Shown here one piece after another: positions 22,257 to 26,172 of a stretch of 64,000 nucleotides of DNA; position 1 is the first letter of the stretch, and each line of letters starts with the position of its first letter. The stretch comes from Maridesulfovibrio sp. (GTDB taxonomy: Bacteria; Desulfobacterota; Desulfovibrionia; Desulfovibrionales; Desulfovibrionaceae): assembly GCF_963676065.1 (NCBI RefSeq), contig NZ_OY780933.1, forward strand, positions 868,001-932,000, read 5' to 3'. A program made the translations under genes and the position numbers. The notes below the pieces were generated by a model. That model saw only the letters and a list, made by a program, of their open reading frames with translations, made no database searches and was not told the DNA's origin.

Positions 22257-22910
22257 TTAAAAATGATAATACATAGTGTTAGTGGCTGAGAACCGTTCGT
22301 GATCCGAAAGATCGTGTTTGCGTGCCGGGGCCTGCAGGGCGTTGTCACGGTACTCGAAGATCTTGACCAGAAATCCTGATTTGTCCTTTGTTATGAATAA
22401 GCCTTCCCGCTCACCGTTGCGGTAATTCATTTCATCCCGAACTCTGCCGTTAGGATAGAAGGTGAAAGACTTGCCGTCCAGCTGGGCCTTTGCGTTGTAG
22501 TGGAGCATTTCCCGCAGCTTTCCATTCTCATAGTATTCGTAATTATAGCCGGACTTGTCCCGGTTGATGAAGAACTTCTGCTTTATGTTGCCGTTTTTCC
22601 AGTAAAGAGTGTGGTAACCGTAATACATGCCGTTACGGTTGGTGCCTTTTTCACGCAGTTTTCCGTCTGGGTAATAGTGGTAGAATTCGCCTTCCATTAC
22701 CCCGTCCTTTACCGTGATCATGCTCTTGGGAAACTTGTGTTCAGAGTCATAATACTCGGCGTAAATACCGCTGAAAGGCTCATTGTCATCAATAAGAAGT
22801 ATTTTGTCCTGCTCAAAACTAAGCTCGTAGAAAGTTGCCTCCTGCTGTCCACATGCGGAAAGCAGAAATAAAAACAGGGCCATAATCAATATGGACAACT
22901 TTTTGAGCAT
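22257..22910 (-). CDS. MORN-2-repeat lipoprotein (YwqK-like)
   Basis: 217 residues. A lipoprotein signal (LFLFLLSAC) precedes about five to six ~20-residue repeats of the pattern G-x-x-x-x-Y-Y-x-x-G-K-L-R-E (for example FYHYYPDGKLREKG, YEYYENGKLREM, FTFYPNGRVRDEM), the MORN_2 repeat. YwqK-family proteins have been called antitoxins in Bacillus, but a lipid-anchored envelope copy in a Gram-negative is more likely a surface or periplasmic beta-sheet scaffold. GGAG precedes the start. No partner gene is evident. Confidence 0.82.
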   Translation of the reverse strand: MLKKLSILIMALFLFLLSACGQQEATFYELSFEQDKILLIDDNEPFSGIYAEYYDSEHKFPKSMITVKDGVMEGEFYHYYPDGKLREKGTNRNGMYYGYHTLYWKNGNIKQKFFINRDKSGYNYEYYENGKLREMLHYNAKAQLDGKSFTFYPNGRVRDEMNYRNGEREGLFITKDKSGFLVKIFEYRDNALQAPARKHDLSDHERFSATNTMYYHF

Positions 22911-22955: not shown

Positions 22956-25832
22956 TTACCAACTGACTGGCAAGCGTACTTTCTTTTTCTCTTTATTAGT
23001 AAATAACACGTATCCGTTCTTTTTGCCAAACAGGTATACATCTTTAGTGACGGCCACATCCTGTTTGCAGTATTCGGTGATCAGGTCCAGACGCCCTTCC
23101 TTCCACCATTCAAGGGCCTGTAATCCGTCCGCACTTTTAGCTGAATCAAGGGTTGCCTGAGCTATATTATCCAGCTTAAGGCGGTAACCCAGACGCTCGT
23201 GGACTTTAATCAGCAGGTCCAGAGTCGGTAGCCCCTTGTAATTGAACGGGTGTATTCCGGAAAGAACCTTGTAGTCGAAACGTTCGATGTTGAAGCCGAT
23301 AATCAGGTCCAGTTTTTGGACCCGCTCCATCATTTCCGGGATCTGTTCTTCTTCGTATTCATAATATTTGTCTTCAGTGGAATCATAGAGCACGGCAATG
23401 GATATGCCCATGCGCTCGGCTTTATTCCAGCCACCGACATCCTGTGCCGAGCGGCGTGTTTCAACATCGAGAACTCCGAAATTTTTGGGTTCCTCGGGTA
23501 TTTGTTCCTTTTTTGCTTCTTCGCCGAAGGGTACCAGTACCATAGATAAATCCTCAATTTTTTCCGGTGGCTGCCCGGTAATCATATTGTTAAGAATGTA
23601 GATAGCCGCGGCCTTGTCGATTGGTCTGTTGCCGGAACCGCATTTTGGAGAATGCACGCAGGTCGGGCAGCCCAGTTCGCATTCGCAGTCTACAATAATC
23701 TGCAAGGTCCTCTCAAGGAGTTCTTCGGCCTGTTCAAATGCCTGCATGGTCAGTCCCGCTCCGCCGGGAATGCCGTCATAGATAAAGACAGCCGGACCAT
23801 CCACCTGCTCATGCATCGGTGTTGAGATCCCGCCGAGATCGTTGCGGTCGGTCAGTACCAGAAGGGGGAGGATGCCGATTGCCGCATGCTCCACCGCATG
23901 AATGCCGCCCATGAAGTGAATGAAATCATCTTCGGCCCTGCGTTTTATCTCCGGTGAAATTTCCATCCACAGACCCTGGGTTTCAAATACCACCGGAGGC
24001 ATGTCCAGAGGTACGATTCCAAGCATTTTTCCGCCCTTAACGGCCCTTTTTTCGTATCCGGTTACCTGTTCTGTTACCCGCAGCCTGCCAAAGCGCATGA
24101 CAATCCCGAAGATCTTTTTCTGAGAATAAATTTCCAGTATTTCCGTAGATTTATTTTTTCGGGCACGGGTATAATAGCCGACACGTTCCTGCGCTGCCCT
24201 TATTTTTTTGGCCCCGAGGTCGAGTTCTTTAATGCAGTAAGTCGAGCCGCGGTGGATATAAACAGCGCCCTCGTGCGCTTCGCTGTAGGCCCGTACTTCG
24301 TCGATGGTGCCGATGGTCGCGCCGCTGGCGGCATCTTCTATGTGCAGGGTAGATCCGGCTCCGCGCAGGGAAACCTCACGGTGGGGTCTCTTGCGGGTGG
24401 AATAGATTTCGTCCCCGCGTTTGTTACGCAGCAGCACACCTTCCTGCTCGAGCTCCGTAACCCGTTTTTTTATCTCATCGTCGCGGAGCAGATAATCGTT
24501 GTCCCGCAAGGTGAGCTCCGCAGCCGCACAAACAAGATGACGCTGCATTATCACCGGATTGTAGGGATTGAGAACCGCGTTCTCCGCGGGCCGGGAAAAG
24601 AAATCGTCAGGGTGGCGCATGAAATACTGGTCAAGTGCATCTTCCTGTCCGACGAGAATTACCGCGGATTCCCGCTGGCTGCGTCCAACACGTCCTCCCC
24701 GCTGCAGGGTGGCCATGACTGAACCGGGATAGCCCACCATGATGCAGATATCGAGCCCGCCTATATCGATGCCCAGCTCAAGTGCGCTGGTTGATATTAC
24801 GGCCAGTAATTCCCCGGAAGACATTTTCTCTTCTATTTCGCGGCGTTCCTCAGGAAGAAAACCGGCCCGGTAAGCACTGATGCGGTCCTTGTATTCACCG
24901 GCCTTTTCATTAACCCACATGGCGATAAGCTCAGTCATTTTGCGTGACTGGGTATAAACGATGGTCCGTAAACCTCGCGCTAGTCCGGCTTTAAGGAGCT
25001 GAATAGCCGCGCTGTATGGCGATACTACCGGGTTGAAAAAAATGTAATTGCGTTTACCGCTGGCTGCGCCGGATTCAGTTATCTGACTTACTTCCAATCC
25101 GGTCAGGTCGTGGCAGAGTTCCGCCGGGTTGCCTACTGTGGCGGAAGAAAAGATAAATGAGGGGTTGGCTCCGTAAAATTTGCATATGCGTAGCAGTCTG
25201 CGGAAAACCATGGCCATGTGGGAACCCATCACACCACGATAGGTATGAACCTCATCGACAACAATGTGGGTCAGTCCGGCCAGAAAAGGTGACCATCTTT
25301 CATGATATGGCAGCATGGATAAATGCAGCATTTCAGGATTGGTCAGGATTACTGCCGGCGGATTGTCACGGATTTTTTTGCGCTTGTAAGGGGTTGTATC
25401 CCCGTCGTAGATGGCGGCTTCAGGACGGGCGTGTTCCGGAAGCAGGGCGGCCATTTCATTAAAGGTTTTGAGCTGGTCCTGCGCCAGAGCTTTCAGCGGG
25501 AAAAGGTAAAGGGCATGCGCGTCAGGATCACGCAGGCATTGTTCCAGCACAGGCAGGTTGTAGGTCAGGGTCTTTCCGCTGGCGGTGGGGGTCGCGACAA
25601 CTACGTTGCGTCCAGCACGGGCGTAATCGGTTGCTTCGGCCTGATGCGAATACAGCTGCTCAATATTCCTGAATCCAAGCACGGAATTTACCGAGGGAGA
25701 AAAAGGGCGGCGCGGTTCGCCGTAGGATGGATCTTTTCCGTCCATGGTTCGGTGATGAACTACCTGATCACCCATGGTAGGTGAAGCGAGCAGGGCGTTA
25801 ATGTATTCTTGTATTTTGTCAGGATTGTGCAA
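22956..25832 (-). CDS. DEAD/DEAH helicase fused to a DEDD exonuclease-like domain (MrfA-MrfB fusion)
   Basis: 958 residues. The N-terminal superfamily-2 helicase has Walker A ATPTASGKT (80-88), DEVH (193-196), SATVG, and motif VI QRGGRVGRSQR. Next is the DUF1998-type zinc domain with CECELGCPTC and SPKCGSGN, as in B. subtilis YprA/MrfA. The last ~175 residues carry DxE (Asp789/Glu791), FNIERFD (Asp853) and YCKQD (Tyr921/Asp925), the DEDD exonuclease triad pattern seen in YprB/MrfB. MrfA and MrfB act together in mitomycin-C repair in Bacillus; here they are one chain. The start is TTG with GGAGA 7 bases upstream, inside a repeat module. Domain calls are firm; the repair role is inferred. Confidence 0.85.
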   Translation of the reverse strand: MHNPDKIQEYINALLASPTMGDQVVHHRTMDGKDPSYGEPRRPFSPSVNSVLGFRNIEQLYSHQAEATDYARAGRNVVVATPTASGKTLTYNLPVLEQCLRDPDAHALYLFPLKALAQDQLKTFNEMAALLPEHARPEAAIYDGDTTPYKRKKIRDNPPAVILTNPEMLHLSMLPYHERWSPFLAGLTHIVVDEVHTYRGVMGSHMAMVFRRLLRICKFYGANPSFIFSSATVGNPAELCHDLTGLEVSQITESGAASGKRNYIFFNPVVSPYSAAIQLLKAGLARGLRTIVYTQSRKMTELIAMWVNEKAGEYKDRISAYRAGFLPEERREIEEKMSSGELLAVISTSALELGIDIGGLDICIMVGYPGSVMATLQRGGRVGRSQRESAVILVGQEDALDQYFMRHPDDFFSRPAENAVLNPYNPVIMQRHLVCAAAELTLRDNDYLLRDDEIKKRVTELEQEGVLLRNKRGDEIYSTRKRPHREVSLRGAGSTLHIEDAASGATIGTIDEVRAYSEAHEGAVYIHRGSTYCIKELDLGAKKIRAAQERVGYYTRARKNKSTEILEIYSQKKIFGIVMRFGRLRVTEQVTGYEKRAVKGGKMLGIVPLDMPPVVFETQGLWMEISPEIKRRAEDDFIHFMGGIHAVEHAAIGILPLLVLTDRNDLGGISTPMHEQVDGPAVFIYDGIPGGAGLTMQAFEQAEELLERTLQIIVDCECELGCPTCVHSPKCGSGNRPIDKAAAIYILNNMITGQPPEKIEDLSMVLVPFGEEAKKEQIPEEPKNFGVLDVETRRSAQDVGGWNKAERMGISIAVLYDSTEDKYYEYEEEQIPEMMERVQKLDLIIGFNIERFDYKVLSGIHPFNYKGLPTLDLLIKVHERLGYRLKLDNIAQATLDSAKSADGLQALEWWKEGRLDLITEYCKQDVAVTKDVYLFGKKNGYVLFTNKEKKKVRLPVSW

Positions 25833-26172
25833 GTTATGTCTCCGGAGGCCATGCCGGGGGCTGGTTTTGATGCGCTATCGCGTTTTTGATCGATAGCATT
25901 TAGCCCACGGCCAAAGGGACTAAGCCGCTCCGCTCTCAGTATCCGTAAACCTCGAAGCGAAGCTTCTTAACTAACGGCTACAGGCCTTTGGAATCCCTAT
26001 TGGGTTAAATAGATATAATTTAGTTTGGTTGTTATTTGGTTCAGGAAGCTAGAGTCATATCGTAAATTCAATTCGTCAAGAAAAAAGGACCGTGCGTATA
26101 AACACACGGTCCTTTTGATTTGTGAATGCGAAACGGCGAATCCTTAATAAAAGGTTTTAAGTCGCCGGAGGC
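25833..26172. repeat. Repeat-module cluster between helicase and sstT genes
   Basis: About 340 bases holding TCCGGAGGCC (25841-25850), TTTTGATGCGCTATCGCG (25865-25882), a CCAAAGGGACTAAG segment with a distant ATCCCTATTGGG partner, a CGAAGCGAAGCTTC hairpin (about 25949-25962) and GCCGGAGGC (26164-26172). It also contains the sstT terminator. No gene is seen. Confidence 0.6.
26081..26116. terminator. Terminator downstream of sstT
   Basis: AAAAGGACCGTG pairs with CACGGTCCTTTT around a short loop, with A- and T-runs at the ends. On the minus strand it ends the sstT transcript. Confidence 0.85.

Follow-up and report, generated by a model that had tools for sequence, protein, structure and literature searches.

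A single gene in the genome of Maridesulfovibrio sp. (phylum Desulfobacterota; NCBI RefSeq assembly GCF_963676065.1, contig NZ_OY780933.1) encodes a YprA-family helicase and a DEDD exonuclease-like domain in one polypeptide. The gene lies in a stretch of 64,000 nucleotides, hereafter the window, which covers positions 868001-932000 of this single-contig 4.23 Mb genome. By analogy with the Bacillus subtilis MrfA-MrfB pair (MrfAB), the single-chain helicase-exonuclease is probably a functional counterpart of that system for DNA repair, built with a non-orthologous nuclease. The first-pass annotation had read the protein as MrfA and MrfB in one chain. That description stands for an MrfA-like helicase carrying a DEDD domain, and is not supported for the nuclease, which appears not to be MrfB: it is of the DEDDy class, without tetratricopeptide repeats (TPR) and of phage type.

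The fusion gene is one open frame of exactly 22956-25832 on the minus strand, with GGAG at 25843-25840, 7 nt 5' of its TTG start; the plus-strand frame translated over the same interval contained many stops. Pfam placed DEAD, Helicase_C, WHD_HRQ1 and MZB/DUF1998 domains on the protein (limits in Table 1), followed by RNase_H_2 at residues 827-933, which scored 29.5 bits in the full-length protein against a Pfam cut-off of 22. Together with the motifs described below, this agrees with the initial claim of a helicase and a DEDD exonuclease-like domain within one 958-residue protein. A full-length model built from 66 sequences reached a mean predicted local distance difference test score (pLDDT) of 89.2 and a predicted template modeling score (pTM) of 0.88. 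The fusion protein was the sole match in an MZB family search of its own genome, in which two further matches to the whole protein were weak (E 5.5e-7 and 3.5e-5). Conservation was assessed over 110 fusion proteins (109 distinct sequences), namely the window protein, P0001, and those of 109 loci that are 47-92% identical to it and that, having been taken as best matches, form a non-random sample. Contigs were scanned with the full protein for the best 80 of 452 loci, the titles of which name Desulfovibrionales, Desulfobacterales, Deltaproteobacteria or unspecified Proteobacteria; the nearest named relative among these 80 is a Desulfovibrio metagenome-assembled genome, 92% identical.

As modelled, residues 1-751 are a YprA-family superfamily 2 (SF2) helicase of the MrfA fold. 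In a phmmer search against solved structures B. subtilis MrfA matched the fusion protein with E 1.4e-149, and the full-length model superposed on MrfA (6znp) with Z 39.5 and a root-mean-square deviation (rmsd) of 6.5 over 725 aligned residues, within model residues 3-751. The Walker A and DEVH residues T83, S85, G86, K87, D193, E194 and H196 were invariant in 110/110 proteins, while position 195 varied; equally invariant were Q377, R378, R381 and R384 of RecA2, and cysteines 716, 718, 722 and 725 of the zinc region plus 731 just past the MZB domain. A helicase tree of 52 rows, with long-branch outgroups, gathered the paired two-gene helicases and B. subtilis MrfA into one group (100/100) and the fused and solo helicases into a separate one (100/99), placing the helicase half apart from both B. 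subtilis MrfA and the mrfAB pairs. The fused helicases formed one group with weak support (71/31), and a single origin of these sequences is compatible with the tree. Nearest to them were seven helicases without a fused nuclease (L115-L120 and L190; solo clade, 100/99), beside which no adjacent RNase_H_2-type gene was seen. This clade should be useful for dating the gain or loss of the nuclease.

The linker that follows the helicase half is poorly conserved, the distance from K740 to D789 ranging from 42 to 145 residues (median 56) in the 110 proteins. Beyond it, the DxE, FNxxxFD and YxxxD motifs that had been noted in this order after residue ~780 were located at D789/E791, D853 and Y921/D925, and all five residues were identical in 110/110 fusion proteins. 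Residues 776-958, modelled alone from 75 sequences, gave a pLDDT of 95.6 and a pTM of 0.90, and structure prediction bore out the RNase H-like fold. In this model the first strand carries D789 and E791, a helix that follows a later strand carries D853, and a long helix carries Y921 and D925, which is the element order of DEDDy exonucleases. Foldseek with VIA-align returned family-B DNA polymerases (PolB) first (5mdn: Z 15.4, rmsd 3.5, 167 aligned residues), and T7 polymerase was also among the Foldseek matches. The structural match covers the N-terminal part of the family-B enzymes, which we take to be their exonuclease, and in a sequence alignment the three nuclease motifs coincided with the PolB exonuclease motifs. 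From their placement on the predicted elements and this motif-by-motif alignment, the five catalytic residues would be expected to meet in one site.

Pfam matched RNase_H_2 in 75/75 isolated fused domains, and PF10108 in 74/75 and PF01612 in 71/75 at E up to 1. The nuclease profile found nothing informative among the sequences of solved structures, the best match (E 0.021) being unrelated; the T7 polymerase exonuclease appeared at E 0.078, in an alignment that brought its Exo II and Exo III motifs into register. MrfB (8UN9) was not among the 50 structural matches listed for the nuclease model, an absence that excludes nothing.

MrfB of B. subtilis is described as a DEDDh exonuclease with TPR, the core of which is structurally near PolB exonucleases (PMC11194089). 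The comparisons below use separate genes of the phylum that lie beside YprA helicases, not the B. subtilis MrfB sequence itself; these nucleases were taken as MrfB-type because their HNxxD motif and TPR agree with B. subtilis MrfB. Among hand-picked rows, 29 pairs of a separate YprA helicase and an adjoining RNase_H_2 gene were found, the helicase gene leading in 27 of them and the nuclease gene in 2, and most of the paired RNase_H_2 frames were of 415-540 amino acids (aa). The HNxxD motif was present in 26/26 MrfB-type proteins, and the fused domain has Tyr at that place in 110/110. TPR were detected in both of the two MrfB-type proteins scanned, above the Pfam cut-off in one of them and below it in the other; there was no Pfam TPR match in P0001 or in the 75 isolated fused domains. 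With hhalign, the fused domain aligned to the MrfB-type profile at a probability of 75% (E 2.5e-5), and at 97% each to PolB exonucleases, to PF10108 proteins and to a set of stand-alone exonucleases termed H-type (20 such proteins of the phylum). MrfB-type and H-type proteins aligned to one another at 99%.

The pairs in reversed order, in which the MrfB-type nuclease gene precedes that of the YprA helicase, were seen at L122:2528-4015 (genome G271) and L121:2-397 (G023), and their helicases form a group of their own (100/100). The Maridesulfovibrio genome itself has a separate RNase_H_2 exonuclease of the H-type, a 285-aa DEDDy protein (YNxxD) at G000:C1:1841943-1842386 (L113:1243-2100), ~950 kb from the fusion. 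Its N-terminal region was read as helix-hairpin-helix, although Pfam reported none there, and a search against the sequences of solved structures gave no informative match for the protein. Kinship of the fused domain with this protein was considered and dropped, as the hhalign probability of 97% equals that for PolB or PF10108.

A scan of IMG/VR recovered relatives of the fused domain in 33 viral loci (L215-L247), the frames being no longer than 298 aa in 32/33 and 655 aa in L247. A phage profile built from 20 of the 33 proteins aligned with the fused domain at a hhalign probability of 100% (E 2.3e-51, 178 columns). The fused-domain profile gave a median of 104 bits for phage exonucleases vs 10 for MrfB-type proteins. 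By BLAST, 75/75 fused domains matched phage proteins (best identity 43%), compared with 2/75 for MrfB-type, 31/75 for H-type, 13/75 for PF10108 and 2/75 for PolB proteins. Note that closeness to the phage proteins is to be expected because they were fetched with the fused domain as query; the weight lies on the far greater distance of the MrfB-type proteins, because these were found independently. The PHROGs family phrog_403, annotated 'DNA polymerase exonuclease subunit', matches the fused domain as well. A search of phage records with the exonuclease domain gave 6 weak matches (E 0.005-0.009), 4 of them in DNA polymerases, and a plasmid search gave nothing at E 1e-5. In a nuclease tree that included the phage rows, fused, phage and PolB domains fell on one side and MrfB-type and H-type proteins on the other (100/99). 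On the sequence comparisons, then, the nuclease is far closer to phage exonucleases than to MrfB.

The fusion is widely conserved in the phylum. In an evenly drawn sample of 297 genomes, with the nuclease domain counted at E 1e-5 or better, it was found in 86, and by our reading of the match table it is in frame with the helicase in 83 of these. Eighty of the domains lie in frames of at least 940 aa and three in frames of 581-711 aa with a partial helicase (G049, G205, G252), these being cut at contigs or broken; the remaining three are a stand-alone domain of 219 aa (G228) and two pieces at contig ends (G118 and G293). Within the same family, where the annotation had called for a survey, all 11 of the 11 genomes sampled carried the domain. 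An MrfB-type gene (E 1e-25 or better) was found in 41 of the 297 genomes and none had both systems, where 11.9 would be expected if they were independent; the searches scored the first few candidates per genome, and this expectation ignores relatedness.

Stand-alone copies of the domain were seen at two places. In G228 the copy (L132:4013-4669) lies directly 3' of an HD-domain phosphohydrolase gene and is the sole match to the fused protein in that genome. The fusion-bearing genome G102 has a second, stand-alone copy (L164:1885-2433) between RmuC and NERD-helicase genes; ~16 kb from it the same contig also encodes an MZB protein, in a frame of 1623 aa, and this may be a defence island.

The mechanism that best fits these data is unwinding plus digestion, and it is set out here conditionally. 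The YprA-family helicase would, as expected from its family, move along single-stranded DNA in the 3' to 5' direction, which is the polarity given for MrfA (PMC12458937). A flexible tether, ~30 residues here and longer in some relatives, would carry a 3'-5' exonuclease of the DEDDy class with the PolB proofreading fold, whose family is otherwise represented by stand-alone phage enzymes. Once the helicase had opened the DNA, at a nick, a gap or a lesion, the exposed strand would be digested from its 3' end by the tethered exonuclease, with two metal ions bound by D789, E791, D853 and D925 and the attacking water oriented by Tyr921. Unwinding would thereby be coupled to the removal of damaged DNA, and one chain could do the work of Bacillus MrfA plus MrfB beside the UvrABC pathway; UvrA is present in this genome. 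MrfB is likewise a 3'-5' exonuclease, and the free 3' end leaving MrfA has been modelled near its active site (PMC11194089). The helicase-nuclease coupling of MrfAB is itself still a model, made with AlphaFold-Multimer (PMC11194089), and in the fusion a tether could serve the same end with no need of a docking helix.

With regard to origin, it could be that an exonuclease from a phage replication module became a lasting C-terminal domain in a line of repair helicases, and that the resulting chimera stands in for MrfAB across much of the phylum; this scenario is offered tentatively, as possible rather than probable. If true, a virus-type proofreading enzyme would have taken the place of a repair nuclease to which it is not orthologous, and evolution would have joined a helicase to a 3'-5' exonuclease on at least two occasions, drawing on different nuclease stocks.

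Several observations weigh against an MrfAB-like repair machine with a phage-type nuclease. The direct flanks of the gene (symporter, MORN_2, two-component pair, cation efflux) are not repair genes, and SOS-like boxes are not enriched in the window (20 vs 15.1 expected), where no link to lesions or stress was found. The seven solo helicases lack the domain, so the nuclease is dispensable in some members of the clade, and the zero overlap with MrfB-type genes may be a matter of lineage and not of function. The trees of the nuclease are both short and deep. Without the phage rows, a grouping of fused and MrfB-type domains was not rejected (P value of the approximately unbiased test, p-AU, 0.27), nor were groupings of both with the H-type (0.41) or of fused domains with the H-type (0.26), and ancestry is not settled by these trees. 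With the phage rows included, the fused rows did not form one clade in the best tree (one clade not rejected, p-AU 0.11), nor did the fused and phage rows together (not rejected, p-AU 0.19); as both clades are absent from it, the nuclease gives neither the direction of transfer nor evidence of a single capture.

One alternative is that the protein is an active helicase-exonuclease that serves mainly replication or recombination, such as the processing of forks, gaps, flaps or primer ends, rather than adduct repair. The annotation of its nearest nuclease family as a phage DNA polymerase subunit points this way, as do the phage copy in L217, which follows an ERCC4/HhH nuclease gene at a distance of two genes, and the neighbours of the two stand-alone bacterial copies. 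Against this, the helicase fold is that of MrfA, the known role of which is mitomycin repair (PMC11194089), and we consider this alternative unlikely.

It could also be that the C-terminal domain is a true MrfB that became joined to its partner helicase and afterwards underwent replacement of His with Tyr and loss of the TPR. Both domains belong to the broad RNase_H_2 family, fusions of YprA helicases to MrfB/YprB homologs are stated in print (PMC12458937, bioRxiv 2025), and the tree without phage rows leaves room for the grouping. The tenfold difference in median score, the uniform Tyr against a uniform His and the position of the helicase half outside the MrfA group all speak against it, and a joint clade of fused domain and MrfB was rejected when the phage rows were included (p-AU 0.015); descent from MrfB is therefore judged very improbable.

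An anti-phage defence effector, comparable to the Druantia, ARMADA or TALON YprA helicases with C-terminal nuclease domains, would account for the 51 PADLOC models that match the protein (BrxHI, DruE, Dpd and DrmA among the 25 listed), and TALON YprA proteins also end in RNase H-fold domains (PMC12458937). These matches, however, map to the helicase core, except that one DruE model maps to the MZB region, and the helicase half aligns with MrfA end to end. The TALON domains are described as inactivated (PMC12458937), whereas the catalytic site is invariant here. PADLOC, run on the five flanking proteins of the window, matched none of four, the fifth being the sigma-54 response regulator, which matches RtcR models over its regulator domains. 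A defence role is thus very unlikely. A catalytically silent role of the domain, in DNA binding or docking, is scarcely credible, given five catalytic residues invariant across 110 proteins of such divergence.

Features of the gene and its immediate downstream neighbour are collected in Table 1. A dicarboxylate symporter gene lies 346 bp upstream on the same strand, and farther out lie a cation-efflux gene and those of a histidine kinase and a sigma-54 response regulator. The MORN_2 gene is perhaps on the transcript of the fusion gene without being part of the machine; a terminator-like hairpin (22241-22215) lies beyond it, and among the 80 related loci it was linked to one open reading frame only. 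No neighbour was constant in the 80 related loci plus the window, where neighbours were counted for recurrence only: the commonest gene taken as real occurred in 13/81, a lower bound since the fusion itself was recovered in 74/81 and flank lengths differ, and a neighbour cluster with 15 members seems to represent a shadow frame in antisense. In the upstream gap, a stretch of ~60 bp (25868-25929) recurs once in the genome, at G000:C1:233336-233398, with 83% identity.

Table 1. Coordinates, in the window, of the fusion gene, its domains and motifs, and the adjoining gene.
Feature	Position	Strand	Remarks
Whole fusion gene	22956..25832	-	958 aa; TTG start 25832-25830, stop 22956-22958
RecA1/DEAD domain, residues 62-236	25125..25649	-	Pfam PF00270 97.2 bits; Walker A TxSGK 83-87, DEVH 193-196
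RecA2 domain (Helicase_C), residues 280-385	24678..24995	-	Pfam PF00271 54.7 bits; QRxxRxxR 377-384
Winged-helix domain WHD_HRQ1, residues 422-492	24357..24569	-	Pfam PF22982 34.1 bits
MZB/DUF1998 zinc-binding domain, residues 647-726	23655..23894	-	Pfam PF09369 77.3 bits
Linker, residues 753-783	23484..23576	-	pLDDT blocks 59 and 52; <50 at 769-775
DEDDy exonuclease-like domain, residues 784-958	22959..23483	-	175 residues; RNase_H_2 33.9 bits in isolation; phrog_403 48.5 bits
Exo I motif D789-x-E791 (LDVE 788-791)	23460..23468	-	110/110
Exo II Asp D853 (GFNIERFD)	23274..23276	-	110/110
Exo III motif Y921-C-x-x-D925 (YCKQD 921-925)	23058..23072	-	110/110
MORN_2-repeat lipoprotein-like gene	22257..22910	-	45 bp downstream of fusion gene; MORN_2 44.9 bits

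Fusions of YprA helicases to exonucleases were thus known already, assigned to a repair branch in PMC12458937; what appears to be new is the DEDDy, phage-type identity of the fused nuclease. The same paper notes that only closely related alleles allow MrfAB complementation. The part of PMC12458937 available to us names no fused-nuclease subfamily and mentions neither DEDDy nor phage relatives, and at the level of titles and abstracts no other paper on this identity was found. MrfAB is a young repair pathway, and the natural occurrence of a tethered form built with another nuclease suggests selection for the pairing as such. The fusion offers a single polypeptide for structural study of the coupling, and it indicates that a phage-type exonuclease may serve in repair, which the label 'MrfB domain' would hide.

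In comparison with known systems, the helicase half shares with B. subtilis MrfA/YprA (PDB 6znp, 6znq, 6zns) the fold and the order RecA1-RecA2-winged helix-DUF1998, at ~35% identity over residues 3-751; it differs in belonging to another group of the family and in having a nuclease added in the same chain. MrfB/YprB (PDB 8UN9) is a DEDD exonuclease that works with a YprA helicase, as the fused domain is predicted to be. MrfB, however, is a DEDDh enzyme with an N-terminal extension and TPR that is encoded by a separate gene, whereas the fused domain is DEDDy, without TPR, in the same chain and distant kin. Its best structural match is the 3'-5' proofreading domain of family-B DNA polymerases, in the compared copies of which the third motif is YCxxD, or in some YAxxD, the fused domain having YCxxD too; unlike those enzymes, the fusion protein has no polymerase domain. 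Stand-alone phage exonucleases like those of PHROG 403 are similar in length (~200 residues) and motif order, the closest (L215) having IDVET, GGW, FNGEGFD and YCKSD, but they are separate genes. Finally, Staphylococcus aureus DinG also joins an SF2 helicase and a 3'-5' exonuclease in one chain, with a mitomycin phenotype; it differs in that its helicase is of opposite polarity and its nuclease is an N-terminal DEDDh domain (PMC12345164).

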